DNA of 24,788 nt, from NCBI GenBank assembly GCA_900299205.1, contig OMIW01000036.1:1-24788 (forward strand), read 5' to 3'. Origin of the DNA: Pseudomonadota bacterium. GTDB taxonomy: Bacteria; Bdellovibrionota_C; UBA2361; OMIW01. This document shows positions 3,594-24,788 of this stretch, in pieces (the first letter of the stretch is position 1; each line of letters begins with the position of its first letter). The position numbers were made by a program, and so were the translations under genes. The notes under the pieces were generated by a model. The model was not told the origin of the DNA, did not search any database, and saw only the letters and a list, made by a program, of their open reading frames with translations.

Positions 3594-5000
3594 ATGTCCC
3601 CTGCCTCGACTGACCTTTCGACCGCCCTTTCGAGCGTTTGTACGACGCGGAGTGATACGGAATCTTGCCTATCATATGGAAAAGACTGGCTAAAAGACTA
3701 TCAGCCAGCACCGTTATGCATCTGTTTTCCCCGCTCCGTTGAGGAGGTTCAGAGCGTTGTCCGCCTTTGTCACCAGGCCAGGCATCCCATCGTCCCTTCT
3801 GGCGGTCGGACCGGACTCGCGGGTGGCGCCACGGCATCAGATGGCGAAGTTGTCGTTTCGCTCGAAAAAATGAATCGCATCATCGCGGTCGACGTGGCGG
3901 AGCGGACGATCCGGGCTGAGGCGGGGGTGACGACAGAGGCTCTCCAGATGGCAGCTCATGAGGCGGGGCTTTTTTTGCCGATCGACTTTGCCTCAAAAGG
4001 GTCAAGCCAGCTTGGGGGTAACATCGCAACGAATGCCGGGGGTATCCGGGTCATTCGATGGGGCATGACCCGAGCCCATGTAGCCCATCTCGACGCAGTG
4101 CTCGCTGATGGGAGTCTCATCAGATGTGGTCACGGGCTCATTAAGGACCAAGGAGGATACGATCTCAAGCAGCTGTTTATTGGATCGGAAGGTACCCTGG
4201 GGATCATTACCGAAGCGACCCTGAGACTTACGACACCTCCCCCTCCTTCACTTCGCGTTTGGGCAGGGCTGGAAACCCTGGTGCAAGCTACCTCTCTCCT
4301 CGATTTTTGTCGTGACCGGGGAGTGATTCTTGATCTTTTCGAGCTCGTCATGCGCGAGGCGTTGGAACCAGTGCTCACTTTCAAACAAAAGCGTGACCCC
4401 CTTGCTCAAAATTATCCCGTATACGCGCTCCTGGAGGCGGAGATTCCGTCGGCTCCAAATGGCAGGGAAATAATCGAGGAGATTCTCATCGAAGCCTGCG
4501 AGCGGGGACTCGTCGCTGATATGGTGGTTGCAGAGTCGACAACTCAGGCGCAAGAGCTTCTGTCACTGCGCGAGCTGGTGAGCGAGACCCTTTCCTCTCA
4601 CTACACCATCCACAAAAATGACGTGTCGGTAAAGTCGACCACGATTCCGGCTTTTATAGACGAGATTATTACCCGAGCGCGCGAATGCGAGCCGACCTTC
4701 GTGGCCGCAATATTCGGCCACCTCGGTGATGGAAACCTTCATATTAACTTCCTCTAACCACCCGCACTGACAGATGAGGCCTTCTTTGCACGGTGTCATA
4801 CCCTCGACGAGGCACTTTTTTCGTGTGTCGCCCGGTACCACGGAAGCGTCGCCGCTGAACACGGCGTGGGGCTCCTGAAGCGGGATTTCCTCCATTACTC
4901 CCGCTCCCCAGAGGAAATCGCAGTGATGCGCTCCATCAAAGAAGCGCTTGATCCGAACCATATCTTTAATCCAGGGAAGGTTATCCCATTTCAGGGCTAA
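3594..5000 (+). pseudogene. FAD-linked oxidase (glycolate/D-2-hydroxyacid dehydrogenase family), interrupted by an in-frame TAA
   Basis: The first segment (387 codons, 3594-4754) carries the FAD-binding PP-loop typical of the GlcD/D-lactate/D-2-hydroxyglutarate dehydrogenase family: SGGRTGLAGGA at residues 69-79 and GGNIATNAGGIR at 141-152, then GSEGTLGIITEA at 198-208. These enzymes oxidise a 2-hydroxyacid to a 2-oxoacid using FAD. A TAA at 4755-4757 follows GDGNLHINFL. The same frame then continues for 80 residues to TAA 4998-5000, with the family's C-terminal signature (AAEHGVGLLKRDFL, then NPGKVIP). Together they give about 468 positions, the usual family length. Homologues I know of commonly have Lys-Pro here, so AAA to TAA is the simplest lesion. 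Without the tail, the flavin/substrate-site His-Gly-Val-Gly segment is lost. Start ATG 3594 has AGGAG 11 bases upstream. A sequencing error or stop readthrough are alternatives to a real pseudogene. Confidence 0.85.
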
Positions 5001-5377
5001 CGCGCTCATCGCAACGGGGGAATCTCGTATCGGCTTTCCCCTTTCCGAGGAAAAATGGGGTGCTTTGCAACTTGGCAAACATCCCCTTTCTCCCAGATTC
5101 CGCCACGCAATATTCGTGAAAAAAAAAGACGGCACCGAAGCAGACAGATTCGAGCAGGAATATCAAGAACTGGGGTGATACCGTCGTTTAGCCTCTCATT
5201 GGCGAGATGGGGTGGATTGATTGTTGATATCACCACAAAGCGACCTAATGAGCGAGGGTCACCCCTCATTCTGCAGAAACAGGGCAAAATACGCCCTTCA
5301 AGCGCATATCTATCTCCAGTTATCAATCGGTACTGTTCCAGCGGTAAAACCGCAGGGCGGACAAGCGGGAGAATCTC
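5001..5377. other. Gene-free, dyad-rich leader upstream of the HTH gene
   Basis: No convincing coding region is present. Several palindromes occur: TGATATCA (5225-5232); a hairpin with AATGAG (5247-5252) and CTCATT (5265-5270) arms plus an inner GGG-TCA-CCC; TTCTGCAGAA (5269-5278); AGGGC/GCCCT (5281-5297); and GCGGT-AAA-ACCGC (5341-5353). Most lie in the 130 bases before the HTH gene, which suggests operators or a folded 5' leader. I could not assign a promoter. Confidence 0.5.
5341..5353. promoter_or_regulatory. Palindrome just upstream of the HTH gene (candidate operator or leader hairpin)
   Basis: GCGGT-AAA-ACCGC is a perfect 5-bp dyad 24 bases before the HTH start codon and 13 bases before its ribosome site. 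Small HTH proteins often autoregulate from such sites, so it could be an autoregulatory operator; this is inference. Confidence 0.3.
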
Positions 5378-5593
5378 ATGGACAAGAACGTACTGTTGTT
5401 GAACGTCGCGGAGGTATCCGAGATACTTCGGATTAGCCGTGCCAAAGTATACATTCTTTTACAAGAGGGAACCTTACAGGGCTTTAAGCTCGGGGCTGAT
5501 TGGCGGATAAAGCGAGATTCCCTTGAGCAGTTGGCGGGCCCAATCCCTGATGATTTTTTCAACCGCAGGCGAAGGCAAAAAAGAGCTGCGTAA
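5378..5593 (+). CDS. Small excisionase-type helix-turn-helix DNA-binding protein
   Basis: This 71-residue protein matches the winged HTH_17 / excisionase-family pattern related to MerR. The core LLLNVAEVSEILRISRAKVY (residues 6-25) is the helix-turn-helix, followed by the wing LLQEGTLQGFKLGADWRIKR (27-46). It ends with an Arg/Lys-rich tail (NRRRRQKR, 62-69). Proteins of this type bind DNA as small regulators or architectural factors; many sit outside phages despite the name, and no integrase is nearby. GGGAG (5367-5371) lies 6 bases before ATG 5378, a good ribosome site. It is on the same strand as the MoxR/Bat cluster that begins 158 bp later, so it could regulate or co-express with it, but no direct evidence links them. 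The family call is confident; the function is not. Confidence 0.85.
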   Translation: MDKNVLLLNVAEVSEILRISRAKVYILLQEGTLQGFKLGADWRIKRDSLEQLAGPIPDDFFNRRRRQKRAA

Positions 5594-5663
5594 CACAAGG
5601 GTCCCGTTAAGCTCAAATCTCCAAAGTGCAGCAGTACTTGGTCAAGTAATCTACCATCCCCCA

Positions 5664-5691
5664 TTGCGCGCCCGCCGATTCCCATTATCAT
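5664..5691 (+). promoter_or_regulatory. Weak candidate promoter upstream of moxR
   Basis: TTGCGC (5664-5669), a 16-base spacer and TATCAT (5686-5691) form a possible sigma-70-type promoter. The -10 box matches five of six consensus bases; the -35 box is poor. It lies 61 bases before the moxR start. Confidence 0.3.
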
Positions 5692-5751: not shown

Positions 5752-6747
5752 ATGGACGGAGAACCTCAACACCCGGTCGTATTCGTCATGCCGCATTCCC
5801 CATCTTCAGCGCTTCACTCCGTTGCTGCCCTAACGAACGAAATCGGTCGTTTCATCGTCGGTCAAGGTGCCTTGATCGAGCGGTTAATTGTGGCGTTGCT
5901 CGCGCAGGGACACGTTCTCCTTGAAGGAGTTCCCGGACTTGCCAAAACTCGCACCTTATCGATTCTTACGAGGTGTCTCTCGGTTCAGATGGGGCGGATT
6001 CAGTTCACTCCCGATCTCCTCCCCTCTGACCTCATCGGCACGGAAGTGTACCGACCCCAAACGGGAGAATTCGTCACCCGAAAGGGCCCACTCTTCACGA
6101 ATCTGCTCCTGGCGGATGAAATAAACCGAGCCCCCGCCAAGGTTCAATCGGCGCTCCTCCAGGCGATGCAGGAGCGATGCGTTACCATCGGAGAGGAGAC
6201 CTACCCGCTCCCCTCTCCCTTCGTCGTCCTCGCGACCCAAAATCCTATCGAACAGGAGGGAACGTATCGGCTTCCCGAGGCCCAGCTCGACAGATTTTTG
6301 ATGAAGATCATCGTTTCGTATCCATCCTTCGATGAGGAACTTGAGATCCTGCGAATGGTGATAGAAGAAGATGAGCCCACCCCCAGAGCGGTGATCACCC
6401 CCGAACAGCTTGCTGACATGCAGCGCGCCGCCCGTGCAGTGCACACTGACCCCCGCATTGATGCGTACATCGTGTCACTCGTCCACGCTACCCGCCGAGG
6501 CGACGCCCACGGACTCGGAGGGATGATCGATTGGGGAGCATCGCCCCGAGCTGGTATTGCTCTTAAGAGCTGTGCCAAGAGTCTTGCGTATGTGAGAGGT
6601 CGGGAGTTTGTGACACCAGATGAAGTGATCGATCTCGCCCCTGATGTGCTTCGACACCGTGTGCTTCCAAGTTTCGAAGCGGAAGCACAAGGAATATCGG
6701 CAGACGATATCGTTCGTCAAATACTTCGGAGTGTGAGCACCCCGTGA
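5752..6747 (+). CDS. MoxR-family AAA+ ATPase of the Bat locus
   Basis: This 331-residue cytoplasmic AAA+ ATPase of the MoxR family is thought to act as a chaperone-like factor in maturing or gating vWA-domain partners. Walker A is GVPGLAKT (59-66), Walker B LLLADEIN (118-125), sensor-1 region [20 protein letters not shown] (161-180), and an arginine follows at 181. The length fits MoxR proteins. Its companions downstream (DUF58, DUF4381-like, vWA, vWA-TPR and BatD genes) are the standard MoxR partners. The start is uncertain: ATG 5752 lacks a clear ribosome site, and ATG 5788 (residue 13) is an alternative, since family similarity starts around residue 22. The gene is separated from the DUF58 gene by 34 bp. 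Confidence 0.92.
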
Positions 6748-6781
6748 CCGAACACCGTGCACGAGCGAGGTTATCGTTGTT

Positions 6782-7708
6782 ATGAAAAACCCGATATTTG
6801 CTCACCCTGAGATAAGACGACTTCAACTACGAACAAAACATCTTGTTCGTAGCGGCCTTTCTGGCGGGTATCGGAGTGCGTTTCGGGGCTCAGGGTTGGC
6901 CTTTTCGGAGCTTCGCTCGTATCAACCCGGGGATGATGTCAAACGGATAGATTGGCGGGCGAGTGCCCGAAGTGGTAACACTCTCGTCAAATCGTATGAG
7001 GAGGATCGCCACCTCTCGATGATGGTGCTTCTCGATACAAGCCTCTCGACCGGAGTTCCGCTGGGCAACATCACGGGACAGCCGGACACACACTCATCGC
7101 AGGAGGGAAACGTACGTGCCCAACTATTTGCATCGCTCGTCGTTTCAGTTGCGATGCAGCATGGCGATGAGGTTGGGTTATGTCTCTGTGGTGGATCAGT
7201 AGAGGAGTACCGCACCCCCAAAAAGACTCGCTCTCACGGACAATCAACTCTCGAATGTATCGCCGCCTATCCAAAAAAGCTCGGAAGCCAACCCGCATCT
7301 CGCGGAACAAGCGATCTGCGTCCTGGCATCGATGCAATCATGCAGCACCAGAGGAAAAGGGGAATCGTCTTCATCATATCAGATTTCTTTCTTACTGACT
7401 GTGAACTCCATCTTCGACGGATCGCCCACCGGCACGACACCATCTGCGTACAGTTGCGGCACCCGTTTGCTGCATCAATCCCCGCCGCCGGTATCGTTTC
7501 ATTTACCGACCCTGAAACGGGAACCCCAGTCCTCATTGATACCTCATCTCGTACCACCCGTCGCAGGGTGCAGGAGACTATCGCTCGTCATGAGCGGGGG
7601 CTCGCCGAGATGTGCAGGCGCTCTCGGATTGAGCTGATCACCATCGACCGCGATCCAGTCGCCCCTTTCGTTGAGCTGCTCCGATCCCGTATGGCGAGGC
7701 TGCGATGA
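6782..7708 (+). CDS. DUF58 domain protein (vWA-like)
   Basis: This 308-residue protein belongs to the DUF58 family, which almost always accompanies MoxR. The signature is RSYQPGDDVKRIDW (45-58), followed by a possible metal-ion-dependent adhesion motif DTSLS (85-89). There is no transmembrane segment, unlike many DUF58 proteins, so it is probably cytoplasmic or peripheral. The biochemical role of DUF58 is not firmly known; it is usually proposed to connect the ATPase to the membrane vWA proteins. Start ATG 6782 has GAGG 11 bases upstream. Its last four bases (ATGA) overlap the start of the next gene, indicating translational coupling. Confidence 0.9.
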   Translation: MKNPIFAHPEIRRLQLRTKHLVRSGLSGGYRSAFRGSGLAFSELRSYQPGDDVKRIDWRASARSGNTLVKSYEEDRHLSMMVLLDTSLSTGVPLGNITGQPDTHSSQEGNVRAQLFASLVVSVAMQHGDEVGLCLCGGSVEEYRTPKKTRSHGQSTLECIAAYPKKLGSQPASRGTSDLRPGIDAIMQHQRKRGIVFIISDFFLTDCELHLRRIAHRHDTICVQLRHPFAASIPAAGIVSFTDPETGTPVLIDTSSRTTRRRVQETIARHERGLAEMCRRSRIELITIDRDPVAPFVELLRSRMARLR

Positions 7709-8235
7709 ATCCGACCTCTGCACCTCCCATCCCCACCCCCTACGACATCACCACGGTGCCTTACATTCCGTACACCCCGAGTTGGCTCGCATGGGTCGCA
7801 CTTGTCATTACGGTAGGTCTCGGGGGGTGCCTTACCATCTGGATCACGCGCCGTCGGAATCCCCCTTCACACTCCCCGAGCGACACCGTTCTCCAGGAAC
7901 TTTCCTCGATCGAGAATGCTGGCTCTGGTGCCTTTCTCTCTCGGCAGGAGTGTGTGGCAGCCTCGCTTATTGTTCGGCGAGCACTTGACGCATCTTATCA
8001 CCTCGGGGTGCACGCGATGGGATCAAACCAGCTTCGTGATCTGGCAACTTCACATCCCCATGAGTCAATCCGAGATATCGCGACGATCTTAGCCGAGCTT
8101 GATACCGCCAAGTTTCTCATCGGGGAAGAGAGCACCATATCGCGCTCCCAGCTCGGTGCGCTTCGAGTATTATTTGTTGTGCTCAGTCATCAGACTATTT
8201 CGGATCAACCCCCTGCAATTGGGGATGTCGCTTAA
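7705..8235 (+). CDS. Small membrane protein of the Bat locus, DUF4381-like
   Basis: This predicted 176-residue protein has one N-terminal transmembrane helix (about residues 27-47, WLAWVALVITVGLGGCLTIW) after a Pro-rich stretch, then a soluble helical region. Position and shape match the DUF4381-type gene that sits between DUF58 and vWA genes in MoxR operons; the sequence match itself is only moderate. The Pro-rich lead (PYDITTVPYIPYTPSW) resembles the family's N-terminal pattern. It is likely an inner-membrane component of the MoxR/vWA complex, with its soluble part facing the cytoplasm or periplasm (not resolved). It overlaps the DUF58 gene by 4 bp, with GAGG 5 bases before the ATG, and lies 23 bp before the BatA-type gene. 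Confidence 0.75.
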   Translation: MNPTSAPPIPTPYDITTVPYIPYTPSWLAWVALVITVGLGGCLTIWITRRRNPPSHSPSDTVLQELSSIENAGSGAFLSRQECVAASLIVRRALDASYHLGVHAMGSNQLRDLATSHPHESIRDIATILAELDTAKFLIGEESTISRSQLGALRVLFVVLSHQTISDQPPAIGDVA

Positions 8236-8258
8236 CAGAATGAGCGGAGGCTTTCGCA

Positions 8259-9212
8259 ATGACATTGGATAATCCATGGGCATTAATTATCGCCCCCTTC
8301 GTCGCGATCCTCGCCCTCGTACGACGCCCGACACCGAACCACATCCTCACCCCGTTTTCCTCTCTTCTCCAATCGATCCCCCCGAGCTTTCGGCTACGAT
8401 GCCGGAGCCCAATTCTTGCCGGAGGATGTGGAATCGCCACCCTTCTGCTTTCGCTGGCCGCCACGCGCCCCTTCGCCGTCATTGATCAGATTGAACCGCA
8501 TGAAGCGCGGACCATTATCCTCGCAATCGATATCTCCCGCAGTATGGAGGCGATTGATTTTGAATCACCGATCGGCACTATAAGCCGTTTTGCCGGAGTA
8601 ACGCAGGTCGTGTCGTCATTCCTCGAACGTCGACACACCGACCGGATTGGCCTCGTTGTGTTTGGTGCATCGGCATTTGTGCAATCCCCAGTTACCCAAG
8701 ACCACGGATTGATCGCACAACTCGTCAAGGGTCTTCGGGTCGGAATCGCGGGAGACGGCACTGCACTTGGCGATGGATTAGGGGTCAGCGTCAAGCGTGC
8801 TCTGGAGGTTCCCGCTCGTTCCCGCGCGGTGGTTCTTCTTACCGATGGAGTGAATACCGCTGGCTCTGTCTCCCCTCAAAAAGCCTCCGAGGTCGCGCGT
8901 GATCTTGGGGTAACGGTTCACACTATCGGAATTGGCGGCACCCGCATTGCACAGGGCATGCAGGGAGCGGAATTTGATGAGGGTCTTCTGCAGAGAGTCG
9001 CTCACACAACGGGTGGCACCTATTCAAATGCGTCATCGGTTGAGCAGCTCGAGGCGGTTTATGATCGTATCGAGGCACTTGAGTTATCGCGTGATGATGG
9101 CCAACGAGAGCTGCTCGTCGAAGAATATTACCCCCTCTGTATTACGGCAGCCCTCGTTCTGTATGTCGGGGTCGTGCTGTCGGCTCGGACACTATTTTTG
9201 AGAATCCCGTAA
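8259..9212 (+). CDS. batA: BatA-type vWA-domain membrane protein
   Basis: This 317-residue inner-membrane protein has a central von Willebrand A domain. The N-terminal membrane region (about 6-20 and 52-68) precedes the adhesion motif DISRS (91-95), with the family Thr in GDGTALGDG (T168) and Asp196 in TDGVN. These three form the metal site (MIDAS). A second membrane helix lies at about 290-310. The vWA domain is expected between two helices and probably projects to the periplasm. Bat proteins were first described through aerotolerance in Bacteroides; their exact role is still debated, and envelope stress or protein maturation is often suggested. Start ATG 8259 has GGAGG 8 bases upstream. The gap to the next gene is 25 bp. 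Confidence 0.88.
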   Translation: MTLDNPWALIIAPFVAILALVRRPTPNHILTPFSSLLQSIPPSFRLRCRSPILAGGCGIATLLLSLAATRPFAVIDQIEPHEARTIILAIDISRSMEAIDFESPIGTISRFAGVTQVVSSFLERRHTDRIGLVVFGASAFVQSPVTQDHGLIAQLVKGLRVGIAGDGTALGDGLGVSVKRALEVPARSRAVVLLTDGVNTAGSVSPQKASEVARDLGVTVHTIGIGGTRIAQGMQGAEFDEGLLQRVAHTTGGTYSNASSVEQLEAVYDRIEALELSRDDGQRELLVEEYYPLCITAALVLYVGVVLSARTLFLRIP

Positions 9213-9237
9213 TGGTCGAGCGAGGGTGATAAAAGCT

Positions 9238-11247
9238 ATGGAATGGGGATTTCGAAACGCCGCGGTACTTACTCTCATTCCCCTCATCGGTATTCTTGGT
9301 GGTGGGTTGCTGTATCGACTCGAGCGAAATCGTAATGCTCGACTTGCCTCGGTGGGCGCTGTACTGAGGGGCATCTCGTGGCGACGGATTATCGCTCCAC
9401 TTGTCCTCGTGGGGCTCATGCTCATAGTCATCGCCCGCCCGTATCGTGGCTTTCGGGATATATCCGTTTCGGAACGAGGACACGATCTTATGATTGTACT
9501 CGATGTAAGCCTCAGCATGGAGGCCGCCGATGCGCTTCCATCGCGGCTTGGCGCGGCAAAAAGAAAGGCGACCGACATCATTGATTGGATATCCCGTCAC
9601 CGAGCAGGTACCAAGATTGGATTGACTCTCTTCGCCGGTTCCGCGCACCTCTATTGCCCCCTCACCGCAGACTACGGAGTGATAAAACAGTTCGTGCAGT
9701 CGGTCCAGTCGAGTTTTATATCGAGCGGTGGGAGTGGTCTCGAAGCTGCTCTCAGGGAGGCATCGCGGGCGCTCAACCCATCTCTTGCCGGAGCTGGCAC
9801 GTCCTCCACCACGAATAATCCGGTCGGCTCGATTATACTCCTTTCTGACGGGGAGGACCGCTCTCTATCGGACCGTTCGCTCGAGTCAATAAAAGCGGAA
9901 CGGCTCTCGATTCAAGCGTTGGGGTTTGGAAGCCCCGAGGGAGCTCCGATAATAACCACGAGTGGTCAACACCTCCGAGATAATGCAGGGAATACGGTGA
10001 TTACCTCCCTTAAACTTGATTCCCTCTCGAAAATAGCCAAAATAACGGGAGGAAACGCCGCTCGCGCCGTCGCCACCGATGACGATTTTGCACCATTTCT
10101 CGAGGCAACGATTCCTGATGGTATCCGAGACAATCAGGGAGGTTCAAGCGCCCGTACCGTTCGGGTTTACGATGAAGTGGGTCCGCTCGTGGCTTTAGCG
10201 ATACTCGCGGCTCTCTCGGTCATCGTCATGACCGGACACCACCGCTCTTGGTTGCTCGTGGTGTTAGGGTGCATCCTTGTTCCATATTCGTCGTCACTTG
10301 CACACGCCGACACCCCGTCCGCCTCGACGCCGACCACTGCTCGCGAGGCGTACCTCGCGTATCAACGGGGGGAATATGCGGCGGCTTACGAGGGATTTAG
10401 GGCAGCGCGAGAGAACGAACCGACGAATAGCGATCTCCTCCACGGCCATGCGAGTGCGGCGTTCCGGTTACAGCGGTATGATGAATCAGCCCAGCTCTTT
10501 GATAAGCTCGCCTCGGTAACGCCCCGAGCTTCGCAGCGCTTTGAAGCGCACTTCAATCGAGGAAATGCCGAGCTCGCAGCTAAGAATTTTTCGAAAGCGA
10601 TCGAAAGCTACGACAGGGCTCTTAATCTTCGAAAGGACGATATCCCAACCACGGCAAATCGCGCGCTCGCTGAACAGCTCCTTAACAAGGAGGAAAAACA
10701 ACTGGAGAGGAAAAGGCAGAAGCAGCACGACGAGAAGAAGGGGAATCAAGCTACGGATACGAACCAGGGGGAATCATCCGAGAATCATCAGCGGGAGAGT
10801 GGTTTAAATAAGGATAATTCGCCCACTGAACGCTCCCAGAATGAAACAAGCACCTCTGATCCCAGTAGCCCAGAGAAACCAGCGCCCGCACCGGACAGGA
10901 GCGAGGACGAACAACACCCGAAAGAAAAAACCGGCGGCGAACAACAAGAGCGAATAGCCCCACCATCATCGGTGGTGGCGAACAATCGAGCCGAAGGGAA
11001 CGGTTCTCCGAGCGCGAATCCAACCCCGATGCAGTCCCCAGCTCAGTCAGCCACCCCACAAACAGATATCGACAATAAGACCACCCTCACCCAAGAGGGC
11101 ACCTCCCAGAAGGGCAGCACCGAGGCCCAAGACCACCTCCCTGCCACCCAAGCCCGCGATTGGCTTAATTCCCTCCCCGAGGCACCAGTCCTCCTCCGAC
11201 GCTACCACGACTCTCGATCAGAACAGCGAACTGGGCAGTGGTGGTAA
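9238..11247 (+). CDS. BatB-BatC fusion: vWA domain plus TPR domain
   Basis: This 669-residue protein joins a BatB-type vWA domain to a BatC-type TPR region. N-terminal membrane helices (about 9-26 and 50-66) are followed by MIDAS motif DVSLSM (89-94), with the family Thr position occupied by Ser (SGGSGLEAAL, S166), and Asp204 in SDGED. Two further hydrophobic stretches (about 314-332 and 337-356) precede the periplasmic-type TPR region: repeats at about 367-400, 400-430 and 435-470. Residues ~482-640 are low-complexity, rich in Glu, Gln, Lys, Ser and Pro, and the C-terminus is aromatic (TGQWW). I chose ATG 9238 (GAGGG about 11 bases upstream) over the GTG at 9226, which has little ribosome site. 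In other genomes batB and batC are often separate genes, and fusions are known. It follows batA by 25 bp. Confidence 0.88.
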   Translation: MEWGFRNAAVLTLIPLIGILGGGLLYRLERNRNARLASVGAVLRGISWRRIIAPLVLVGLMLIVIARPYRGFRDISVSERGHDLMIVLDVSLSMEAADALPSRLGAAKRKATDIIDWISRHRAGTKIGLTLFAGSAHLYCPLTADYGVIKQFVQSVQSSFISSGGSGLEAALREASRALNPSLAGAGTSSTTNNPVGSIILLSDGEDRSLSDRSLESIKAERLSIQALGFGSPEGAPIITTSGQHLRDNAGNTVITSLKLDSLSKIAKITGGNAARAVATDDDFAPFLEATIPDGIRDNQGGSSARTVRVYDEVGPLVALAILAALSVIVMTGHHRSWLLVVLGCILVPYSSSLAHADTPSASTPTTAREAYLAYQRGEYAAAYEGFRAARENEPTNSDLLHGHASAAFRLQRYDESAQLFDKLASVTPRASQRFEAHFNRGNAELAAKNFSKAIESYDRALNLRKDDIPTTANRALAEQLLNKEEKQLERKRQKQHDEKKGNQATDTNQGESSENHQRESGLNKDNSPTERSQNETSTSDPSSPEKPAPAPDRSEDEQHPKEKTGGEQQERIAPPSSVVANNRAEGNGSPSANPTPMQSPAQSATPQTDIDNKTTLTQEGTSQKGSTEAQDHLPATQARDWLNSLPEAPVLLRRYHDSRSEQRTGQWW

Positions 11248-11491
11248 TTGGGGGCTTCGGGCCGAGGGTTGAGAGGTCGCATGGGTAGGGGGCGTTCGGT
11301 GTACTCATAATTTCTCCAATCGGATTCTTAAGCGGAGCCTCTCTCGAATTCTTATCTCGTGGGTGCCAAGGTTTGAGTCCTCAGATTTGACCCGCATCGC
11401 GATCACATTTGCGAAAAACAGAGGGAGACCTCGCTCATTTGTTATCGTATGATCGGTGCCATTAAACCGCTTCTTTGCCACGCGAGCTGCT

Positions 11492-12025
11492 ATGCGATAC
11501 TCCCGTTCCTTATTCTTTTGGAGCCTCGTTATTCTCGTTCTGTCCGGCTGCGGGGTGTCGGTTCGAGAGTATGAGAATGAGAAGCCTGTGCTGGTCGTTG
11601 AAGAGTTTTTCGCGGGAGAACTGAAAGCCTTTGGCGTGGTTGCCGAGCGTAGCGGCAAGGTAATCAAGCGGTTCTCTTGCGACATGAAGGGAAGCTGGGA
11701 TGGTCACACGCTTGTGCTTGACGAAGACTTTACCTGGTCGGATGGCTCTCGACAGAAGCGAGTGTGGCGGTTGGCGAAGAAGGCTGATGGGACGTTCTCT
11801 GGAACGGCTGACGATGTCATCGGCGAAGCATTTGGGGAGGTTTCAGGAAACACCCTCCATCTTGTCTACGATCTCTCCGCTCCGGTTAACGGATCAACGA
11901 CAATCCTGCATGTCGATGACTGGCTCTACCTCGTCACTGATTCAGTGATCATGAATCACTCAGAGCTCACAAAGTTCGGAGTGCATGCAGCGGATGTGTT
12001 TTTGACAATTCAGAAGAAGGGGTAA
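11492..12025 (+). CDS. DUF3833-type lipoprotein, inside the Bat locus
   Basis: This is a predicted 177-residue lipoprotein with a signal peptide (MRYSRSLFFWSLVILVLSGC) and lipobox LSGC, so Cys20 would be lipidated. The mature part fits DUF3833: a beta-rich protein with a repeated pattern (EEFFAGELKAFGVV, FSGTADDVIGEAFGEVSGN, DDWLYLVTDSVIMN). Function unknown; it is probably an outer-membrane or periplasmic-face lipoprotein. I preferred ATG 11492 over the GTG at 11456 because it gives a canonical signal peptide; both have weak ribosome sites. It lies between batBC and batD with spacers of 244 and 235 bp, whereas the earlier Bat genes are tightly packed. It therefore looks inserted and may have its own transcription. 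DUF3833 is not a usual Bat component. Confidence 0.8.
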   Translation: MRYSRSLFFWSLVILVLSGCGVSVREYENEKPVLVVEEFFAGELKAFGVVAERSGKVIKRFSCDMKGSWDGHTLVLDEDFTWSDGSRQKRVWRLAKKADGTFSGTADDVIGEAFGEVSGNTLHLVYDLSAPVNGSTTILHVDDWLYLVTDSVIMNHSELTKFGVHAADVFLTIQKKG

Positions 12026-12027
12026 AA

Positions 12028-12096
12028 GGTCTTTGAGGGGAAGAGGTATAGCTGCCCGTAAGAACCTTTTCCAAATGGTATAGCTGGTCAAAGACC
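12028..12096. repeat. Nested inverted and direct repeats after the lipoprotein gene
   Basis: GGTCTTTGA (12028-12036) pairs with TCAAAGACC (12088-12096). Inside, AAAAGGT (12024-12030) can instead pair with ACCTTTT (12064-12070), and GGTATAGCTG occurs twice (12045-12054 and 12077-12086, 32 bases apart). The two pairings share bases, so alternative folds are possible. It begins right after the lipoprotein stop codon, and no T-run follows. Confidence 0.45.
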
Positions 12097-12260
12097 CCTC
12101 GAATCGGCCCCAAAGCCACAATCAACAGCCTCCCCCCCAAGGTGTTAGAAACCCTCGGGGAGCGAAGCCCCTCCCCTCACCGCCCGACCCCGTATTCCCC
12201 GAACAGCCCTCTCCGCGTACAATCTCGGAATGCGGTGAACCTTCCCGATATCTTTTTGCC

Positions 12261-14096
12261 ATGGCAGCGCTCTTTTCTATCCCCTTCCCTCTCGGTCGAC
12301 CTCGACATATCTTTCCTGTGTGCGTCTGTCGGTACCTTGTCCTCGTTCTCGCCATCCTCTTTGCACCTCTTATCCGTGCGGAGCCGTTGACGACGCAGCT
12401 TTCCCCTCAAGCGGGTACCATGGATGACACGTTTACCCTCGCGATTACGGTCCGTGGGAGAGGAGAACCGACGATGCCCTCGACTCCGGACTCGCCCGAC
12501 TTTGCCATTCGGTTTATCGGCCCGCAAACCGCTATCCAGATTATTAATGGAGTCCTCCAGCAAGAGACCTCTTTGCTGTTTGAACTCACCCCACGGCGGG
12601 TGGGAACCCTTACCGTGCCATCTCTGGAAATTTCAATCGAAGGGTCTCGTCAGAAAAGTGAACCCATCTCCGTCACCGTCACCGCTGCTGACACCTCGAC
12701 GAAGAGCGACGATTCGATCATCCTTGAGCAATCAATCTCTTCATCGACTCCTTTTCACGGTGAACAGGTACAGTATCAGCTAACCTTTTTGACACAACTT
12801 CCGATAGCCGAGCTCGCCCTTCCCGACCTCACCTTCGATCAATTCTGGTCAACTCAACCAAACGAAAACACCGCGGAATCAACGGTCCGTCGCGGGGGGA
12901 AGAGCTATCGCTCTGTCTCGGTTAGTCGAGTCCTGTTTCCCCTTACCTCGGGAGATTTTACCCTTCCAGAGCTCACAATAAATCCCAAAGTGGTTGAGAG
13001 GGGGCCACGGGCTCCTTTCCCTCCGGGGGCGATCGATCCATTTGATATCTTCGCAAACTCTCGCCACCTTTTTGGAGCTCCACAACAAACACGACGACGC
13101 ACCGTTCGTGCGCCGCCTCTCGCCCTCTCGGTAGCCCCTCTTCCCCCGGCCCCGGCCGATCTCCACCTCTGGGATCCCAACCACCCCCTCGTCGGACCGA
13201 CCAGCATCACGGCAACGTACGACGACACCCCGATCGACAGTGGCCAGGGAAAAACGGTTACCCTAACCCTCACGAGCGAGGGGAACATCTCTTCCTGGAG
13301 GCGTCCACTCATTCAATCGAACTCGTCCTTCCGCGTATATGAAGAAACTGTCCAGACAGCGACCGCTCTCCACGGTGACAAAATTGTCACACAGAGAACA
13401 ATTCCTCTCACTATCGTTCCCCTCTCCGGAGGGAATGTTACCATTCCGCCAATCAAAATATCGTTCTTTGATCCTGTAACCACCAGCTATCAGATAACCA
13501 CCTCTCGACCGATTTCTTTTGAAGTTCTCGGGAAAGTCGCAGAGTCAACGCCTCTGCCACCACCCACGATCCAACCACCCCGCCTCCCCACCCAGCCTCA
13601 TGGTACCGTTTCACCGACGCTCAATCCCCTCCCCGCCGATGCTTCCGCAAAGAGTGATTCAGCTTCATCATCTATCTCGACTATTCTTCGTAACCTTGGA
13701 ATTCCTCTCGTTCTCTTTATTTCGACAGCATCGCTTAGTGCTGCCGCTCTGATTTTGTTGACAATTATTCGGATACGACGCCGTCGCCTTCCCTCTCTTG
13801 CAAAGGCCAGAGGAGAGATCGAATCATGCCGAACCAGTAACGAGCTGACCTACACATTCGGGCGGATCCTCACCTCGCTTGTGCACCGAGGAATAGCCCC
13901 CGACAGCGGTGAAAGCCTTAAGGCGATTGTACGATCTACTATTCATGAACCCGCTCTGCAGTTTGATCTCCTTAGCTTCATCGACCACCTCAACGCCGCC
14001 CGATTTTCCGGTGCCGAACCCCAGAAAAATGACATCATCATCATGAAGGAACGCGCCCGTACACTTCTGGAGCGGGTTGCTCGTTATTCGCTATGA
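12261..14096 (+). CDS. batD: BatD family protein
   Basis: This 611-residue exported membrane protein is the large Bat component. A signal peptide is predicted (about residues 24-40, YLVLVLAILFAPLIRA, cleavage likely after Ala40). The body is beta-rich with repeated immunoglobulin-like strands, then a Pro-rich segment (about 430-460), a single transmembrane helix (about 480-503) followed by IRIRRRR, and a short helical cytoplasmic tail. This matches BatD proteins, in which the large N-terminal part lies in the periplasm. BatD is thought to interact with the vWA proteins. No ribosome site is visible before ATG 12261. The GTG at 12318 (residue 20) would also give a good signal peptide, so the true start is uncertain. 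The gap from the lipoprotein gene is 235 bp, so batD may have a separate promoter. Confidence 0.88.
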   Translation: MAALFSIPFPLGRPRHIFPVCVCRYLVLVLAILFAPLIRAEPLTTQLSPQAGTMDDTFTLAITVRGRGEPTMPSTPDSPDFAIRFIGPQTAIQIINGVLQQETSLLFELTPRRVGTLTVPSLEISIEGSRQKSEPISVTVTAADTSTKSDDSIILEQSISSSTPFHGEQVQYQLTFLTQLPIAELALPDLTFDQFWSTQPNENTAESTVRRGGKSYRSVSVSRVLFPLTSGDFTLPELTINPKVVERGPRAPFPPGAIDPFDIFANSRHLFGAPQQTRRRTVRAPPLALSVAPLPPAPADLHLWDPNHPLVGPTSITATYDDTPIDSGQGKTVTLTLTSEGNISSWRRPLIQSNSSFRVYEETVQTATALHGDKIVTQRTIPLTIVPLSGGNVTIPPIKISFFDPVTTSYQITTSRPISFEVLGKVAESTPLPPPTIQPPRLPTQPHGTVSPTLNPLPADASAKSDSASSSISTILRNLGIPLVLFISTASLSAAALILLTIIRIRRRRLPSLAKARGEIESCRTSNELTYTFGRILTSLVHRGIAPDSGESLKAIVRSTIHEPALQFDLLSFIDHLNAARFSGAEPQKNDIIIMKERARTLLERVARYSL

Positions 14097-23381: not shown

Positions 23382-24788
23382 TTATCTGCGACCCCCTCGT
23401 CGCACGTTCAGATTTGCCCAGTACACATACGAGAGATTGATGAGGGAGAAGATCCACTGAGTTGGAGAGAGATACAGCATCATCTCACCCAGCACAAGCT
23501 TCTCGGATACGGCCGAGATTTCGAGTAAAATGATGAGGATTGATTCGATTGCGAGGATCATTACAAATCGGCCGGTTATTACCCGATTTTCCTCCTTTTC
23601 AAGGGCTGAAACCTTTCTTCTAGGTGGCCTCATCAATCCTCCGATGAGATACACCCACGAAATAAGGGCAAGATACGAGACTATACTCGAATAGAGCGAC
23701 GGGGGCGAAGATACAACCCAAACCTGAACTTCACCGAGATTGACCCCGGAAACACCCCACTGTGCTGGCGTCAGGGCAGCTATCTGGAGAAAAAGTACTG
23801 CTGCGCCGAATACACTCGTCACCATTTGCTGCGCTAAAATATCCGTCGATAACGAGGGCAAAGTCGCGATAATCGAAGGAACAAAGAGCGACAACCAAAT
23901 AAGGATTGCTACTCCCCGAATATGGCGCACAAGCACCTCTCTGACCGCCCTTTCATTCGAGGTTAATCCGAGCCGAAATGCACCCCGAGAGAGCGCTGCC
24001 GATACGAGGCCGCTTGTTACTACGATAGAGGCGTATCCCCCTACCATCGTCAATGGCGATTCGAATGATGAGCCAAAAACATTCAGAGTGATGTGGAGAA
24101 AAACAGCCGAAACTATCGCTGCTGCACATACCACCGCGCCGAGCAACAAGGCGGCTAAAAATGAGTGCTCAACCCCCATCTGACGAAACACTCCTGAGGC
24201 AGGCTCAACCAATCGCGATATTGCTAAAGGACTCGCCGCGAGAGGACCGTCTGAAAAAGGGGTATTAACAGTGGGCTGAGCAAACGTTCCAGATTGACGC
24301 CGAGAGCTGAGGGTTACCCCCGCTATTTCGCTGAAAAGCGCGTCATCACACAAAGGTCGATTCGCAGGATCTTTATCGAGAAGACTCAATATCAGATCCT
24401 CGAGACCCGCCGACACCGTAACAATCTCAGATGGAGCAACTGGCAATTGCTCAAGGTGTGCCTGCATCATCTCCGTCATCTTTTCCCCCTTCCACGGCGC
24501 GATACCAGTTATCACCTGATACAGGATAACTCCAAGTGCGTACATATCACTGGCAAATGAGGGATCGGCGCCATCCCATAGCTCGGGAGCGAGATAAAGG
24601 GAGGTTCCCATGAGGGCATTGGTCACGGTCAAATCGGATTGAATCGAGCGGGCGAGTCCGAAGTCAATTATCTTGACGATATTTCCCGCAGTAAGGAGGA
24701 TGTTAGAGGGCTTGAGGTCTCGATGGACGACACCCTTAAAATGAATCGCCGCTAGTCCCTCAACGATCTGCTTTATAAGTGGGACACT
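23382..24788 (-). CDS. Ser/Thr protein kinase with C-terminal multi-pass membrane domain (5' partial)
   Basis: The frame is open to the right window edge, so the N-terminal lobe is missing. The visible 468 residues begin in the kinase catalytic core: HRDLKPSN (22-29), the metal-binding DFG (42-44), the activation-segment APE (about 67-69) and SDMYALGVILYQ (80-91). All catalytic-loop residues seen here are intact. After the kinase domain come a linker and six or seven hydrophobic helices (about 210-232, 250-272, 292-310, 322-338, 370-385, 408-426 and 440-458), so the kinase domain faces the cytoplasm and is tethered to the membrane. Substrate and signal are unknown. It ends at TAA 23382-23384, 29 bp before the chalcone-isomerase-like gene. 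Confidence 0.9.
   Translation of the reverse strand, partial: SVPLIKQIVEGLAAIHFKGVVHRDLKPSNILLTAGNIVKIIDFGLARSIQSDLTVTNALMGTSLYLAPELWDGADPSFASDMYALGVILYQVITGIAPWKGEKMTEMMQAHLEQLPVAPSEIVTVSAGLEDLILSLLDKDPANRPLCDDALFSEIAGVTLSSRRQSGTFAQPTVNTPFSDGPLAASPLAISRLVEPASGVFRQMGVEHSFLAALLLGAVVCAAAIVSAVFLHITLNVFGSSFESPLTMVGGYASIVVTSGLVSAALSRGAFRLGLTSNERAVREVLVRHIRGVAILIWLSLFVPSIIATLPSLSTDILAQQMVTSVFGAAVLFLQIAALTPAQWGVSGVNLGEVQVWVVSSPPSLYSSIVSYLALISWVYLIGGLMRPPRRKVSALEKEENRVITGRFVMILAIESILIILLEISAVSEKLVLGEMMLYLSPTQWIFSLINLSYVYWANLNVRRGGRR

Follow-up and report, generated by a model that had tools for sequence, protein, structure and literature searches.

A single in-frame TAA interrupts, at codon 388, an FAD-linked oxidase gene in the window (the whole stretch of 24,788 nucleotides that was analyzed), and it is very probably a lone nonsense point change, that is, either a very young and perhaps unfixed null mutation or an error in the assembly consensus. 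One substitution in a lysine codon, presumably AAA to TAA, would have been enough to produce it in an otherwise intact flavoenzyme gene, probably of the D-2-hydroxyglutarate/glycolate/D-lactate dehydrogenase type. Translation would then stop at residue 387, with the loss of the third metal ligand (Glu422), of the base (His423), and of the NPGK motif, and the resulting enzyme would be expected to be inactive. The sequence feature is real, and the biology is ordinary. The source draft genome of an uncultured bacterium, hereafter G000, amounts to 2.45 Mb in 206 contigs, is 89.75% complete, and is the sole searched member of its genus and family.

Table 1. Parts of the interrupted dehydrogenase gene, with positions counted from the first nucleotide of the window.
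Feature	Position	Strand	Content
5' part, 387 codons	3594..4754	+	FAD_binding_4 and first two thirds of FAD-oxidase_C; His metal ligands 376 and 383
In-frame TAA, codon 388	4755..4757	+	Lys in 17/19 distinct homologues
3' part, 80 codons and terminal TAA	4758..5000	+	Rest of FAD-oxidase_C; Glu422 metal ligand, catalytic His423, NPGK

Translation of the gene (3594-5000, plus strand) yielded 387 sense codons before the TAA and 80 between it and the terminal TAA, bearing out the sequence-only reading, which had described a frame kept on both sides of the stop. GHLGDGNLH was located before the stop, and the motifs AAEHGVGLL and NPGKVIP, which that reading had listed, were located after it. In the Pfam analysis, the first part matched FAD_binding_4 (2.6e-40) and positions 10-174 of the FAD-oxidase_C profile (3.8e-20), and the second part matched positions 187-248 of this same profile (1.9e-21). 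As both matches are significant and cover complementary stretches of the same profile, chance is ruled out, and it is thus a single domain that is interrupted in frame.

Other genes of the window were noted as well. A short helix-turn-helix gene of the HTH_17 (excisionase) type, which was missing from the list of 80-aa ORFs, is located downstream (5378-5593, plus strand), and the DNA of this region shares 71-78% identity with loci from three of the order's genomes; an overlapping minus-strand ORF (5323-5691), for which Pfam returned nothing, is probably not a real gene. The region from 5752 to 14096 (plus strand) is a Bat (aerotolerance-type) gene cluster, encoding in a row a MoxR ATPase, a DUF58 protein, a weak DUF4381 match, two VWA proteins (the second with TPR), a DUF3833 protein, and BatD. 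The minus-strand genes between 14702 and 22148, all with open frames, are those that we take, from recognition of their sequences, to be the pyrimidine genes carB, carA, pyrC, pyrB, and pyrR. Finally, a serine/threonine protein kinase gene (23382-24788, minus strand) is cut by the contig end, and its kinase domain is followed by a long region, membrane-bound in appearance, with no further Pfam match.

Taken across the stop, the interrupted gene encodes the FAD_binding_4 and FAD-oxidase_C domains of D-2-hydroxyglutarate dehydrogenase-like oxidases. The read-through sequence aligned over nearly its full length with R. palustris 3PM9 (6e-89) and with the human D-2-hydroxyglutarate dehydrogenase (D-2-HGDH) 6LPN (6e-77), and the matches ranking after these two were glycolate oxidase and D-lactate dehydrogenase chains. 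The D-2-hydroxyglutarate dehydrogenase of Pseudomonas aeruginosa also counts among the closest known enzymes. The best NCBIfam match was GlcD (TIGR00387), which has the same two-domain architecture, but the first and second parts of the gene scored 221.1 and 54.5 bits, respectively, against a curated cut-off of 567.9, and equivalog status was not reached by either part. To judge from these matches, the gene product is an FAD- and metal-dependent 2-hydroxyacid dehydrogenase of an ordinary kind, belonging to the D-2-hydroxyglutarate dehydrogenase family.

Read on both sides of the stop, the gene retains the Arg, Lys, Asn, two His ligands, Glu, and catalytic His of the human-type enzymes. Arg386, Lys401, and Asn443 of the human enzyme correspond to Arg326, Lys341, and Asn385, which are all located before the stop, as are Ser330, Phe374, His376, and His383. 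Glu422 and His423, corresponding to Glu475 and His476 of the human enzyme, are located after it. In human D-2-HGDH, the metal is bound by His434, His441, and Glu475, with His476 as the proposed base, and mutation of any of these four residues abolished activity (PMC7801405); equivalent roles were proposed for His374, His381, Glu420, and His421 of the P. aeruginosa enzyme (PMC10034468). The gene analyzed here differs from its human counterpart in that the frame ends before the Glu/His pair, Thr390 is replaced by Ser, and Tyr432 by Phe, and its substrate is putative. A product ending at residue 387 would represent 83% of the full length and would not contain the complete His/His/Glu metal ligands and the catalytic His, since Glu422 and His423 follow the stop. 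Without these two residues and the C-terminal NPGK, the truncated protein should be inactive.

The gene was found in 22 of the 28 genomes of the order, G000 included, and in 12 of the 13 high-quality ones. At the position of codon 388, a sense codon was present in each of the 19 distinct homologues found in the order (40-53% identity; L022, being the same as L010, was not counted separately), namely Lys in 17 (8 AAA and 9 AAG), Met in one, and Gly in one. A search of related genomes for the same allele, as the sequence-only reading had advised, returned TAA in none of the 19. Its proposal of a single substitution, for example AAA to TAA, fits the lysine codons found at this site, and AAA accounts for 44% (2137/4806) of the Lys codons in long ORFs sampled from G000. 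The Lys-Pro pair that it had described as common in homologues held for Lys, and the Pro after it was confirmed only in part. Apparent recurrent internal stops in the homologues from G010 (TGA), G015 (TAA), and G003 (TAG) were rejected. The stops of G015 and G003, once placed, proved to be terminal ones that sit past the NPGK motif, and no stop was present in the part of G010 that aligned. Placement covered G015 and G003, and G031, from another order, was also flagged in the search.

With the closest homologue at about 53% identity, synonymous sites are presumably saturated, and decay was thus gauged by conservation ratios and retained invariant residues in place of Ka/Ks. Of the 64 columns that are invariant in the relatives, 61 were kept, and the three substitutions at the others, Ile to Leu, Tyr to Trp, and Phe to Leu, were all mild; in intact homologues, between 0 and 8 such columns are changed. 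When identity to the relatives was split at the stop, the ratio of C-terminal to N-terminal identity was 1.07, compared to 0.96-1.17 in intact homologues, and the last 80 codons were coding-like according to a logistic classifier. In a neutral simulation, the probability of observing no further stop together with 61 retained residues was 0.44 at 0.5% divergence and 0.18 at 1%, and fell to 0.04 at 2% and 0.006 at 3%, suggesting that the divergence accumulated since inactivation would be less than about 2%. Selection has therefore acted on the gene up to the very recent past, or acts on it still. The view that the rest of the gene is undegraded, so that any loss must be recent, was thus upheld, and the gene shows the pattern of a young pseudogene, with one disabling lesion, little other decay, and absence of the lesion from relatives.

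Other nonsense-interrupted genes were sought with a coding-frame logistic classifier (cross-validated AUC of 0.98) applied to 666 kb, or 27% of the genome; it was used instead of an earlier codon log-odds scan, which was too weak and missed the window's own TAA. Most of the candidate stops resembled ordinary boundaries between neighboring genes or lay in unsupported reading frames, and ten of the candidates were examined with Pfam. One further clear case was a trypsin-like (PF00089) serine protease gene with a TAG at positions 2760-2762 of contig C135, where the Trypsin domain spans the stop, located at the conserved Trp of 'LIAPQ-stop-VLTAAHC'. The genome's remaining five matches to the trypsin family contained no internal stop. 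This count of second lesions is a lower bound, since the scan misses many cases. The two lesions, a TAA at a Lys and a TAG at a Trp, differ both in the stop and in the ancestral residue, which is consistent with point lesions or errors that arose independently and does not fit a single recoding rule.

Several explanations of the TAA were weighed. Programmed or tolerated readthrough, yielding some full-length enzyme, would be consistent with the intact and still coding-like frame downstream of the stop, and many in-frame stops have been proposed to be read through (PMC7918605). However, no UUA anticodon was present among the 41 tRNA hits of the genome, whose anticodons are all ordinary, the RNA 3' of the TAA folded no better than shuffled sequences (z = 0.90), which led us to reject a stimulatory stem-loop, the stop is conserved in none of the 19 orthologues, and TAA is an ordinary terminator here, ending 102 of the 342 long ORFs of the 666 kb sample. 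Rare readthrough, suggested in the sequence-only reading, was therefore left unsupported, and we consider it improbable; useful readthrough by an unrecognised mechanism, with the single-copy dehydrogenase expressed at a reduced dose, appears more improbable still. A restart of translation was also rejected, as the first in-frame ATG, GTG, or TTG after the stop is a GTG at codon 425, beyond Glu422 and His423. Reassignment of TAA to a sense codon throughout the genome, for which the open frame alone speaks, is extremely unlikely, since about 30% of the long ORFs end with TAA, a cognate tRNA was not found, and no other in-frame TAA within a recognised domain was seen among the candidates checked in the 666 kb. 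Reassignment and suppression were thus rejected on the tRNA set and stop usage, in agreement with the earlier judgment that a change of code was unlikely.

Recent inactivation and sequencing error, both raised in that reading, are retained, given the sense codon in homologues and the lack of further decay. There is about an even chance that the TAA is real and marks a null allele of very recent origin, whether fixed or still segregating, in a population that has lost or is losing the dehydrogenase. It lies one step from AAA, a second nonsense-interrupted gene was found in the genome, most real in-frame stops of bacterial genes are SNP-like alleles that last only briefly (PMC7918605), and young bacterial pseudogenes are removed fast (PMC2916853). 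Against this stands the lack of a visible backup: no other FAD-oxidase_C gene and no YdiJ-type dehydrogenase were found in G000, in which, at 89.75% completeness, a backup could be missed, and yet SerA-like genes with open frames, scoring below the curated cut-off, persist on contigs C61 and C68. D-2-hydroxyglutarate can be made by SerA and removed by dehydrogenases of this kind (PMC9504171). With the SerA-like genes intact and no backup found, a null allele may be costly, which moves weight to a polymorphism or a consensus error over a fixed loss; if the putative substrate is indeed D-2-hydroxyglutarate, fixation of the loss would be somewhat surprising. A consensus error only, the organism's gene being intact and the TAA an assembly or sequencing artefact, is a serious possibility to which we give slightly less than an even chance. 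It is consistent with the fragmented and incomplete draft, the absence of other decay, the conservation of this single-copy gene in the order, and the intact SerA-like genes, and low-coverage assemblies often yield spurious internal stops (PMC11017572). A point against it is that the TAA does not lie in a homopolymer. A lone point lesion, in a draft genome and within a gene that is otherwise intact, is also what has been described for single-nonsense bacterial pseudogenes and for those made by assembly (PMC2916853, PMC11017572), and no qualitative difference from these was observed here.

The finding is thus mainly of value for annotation, which should mark the gene as a pseudogene or a possible consensus error. 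If the allele is real, this lineage would be without its only detected dehydrogenase of the D-2-hydroxyglutarate type, a putative substrate assignment, while keeping its SerA-like genes.
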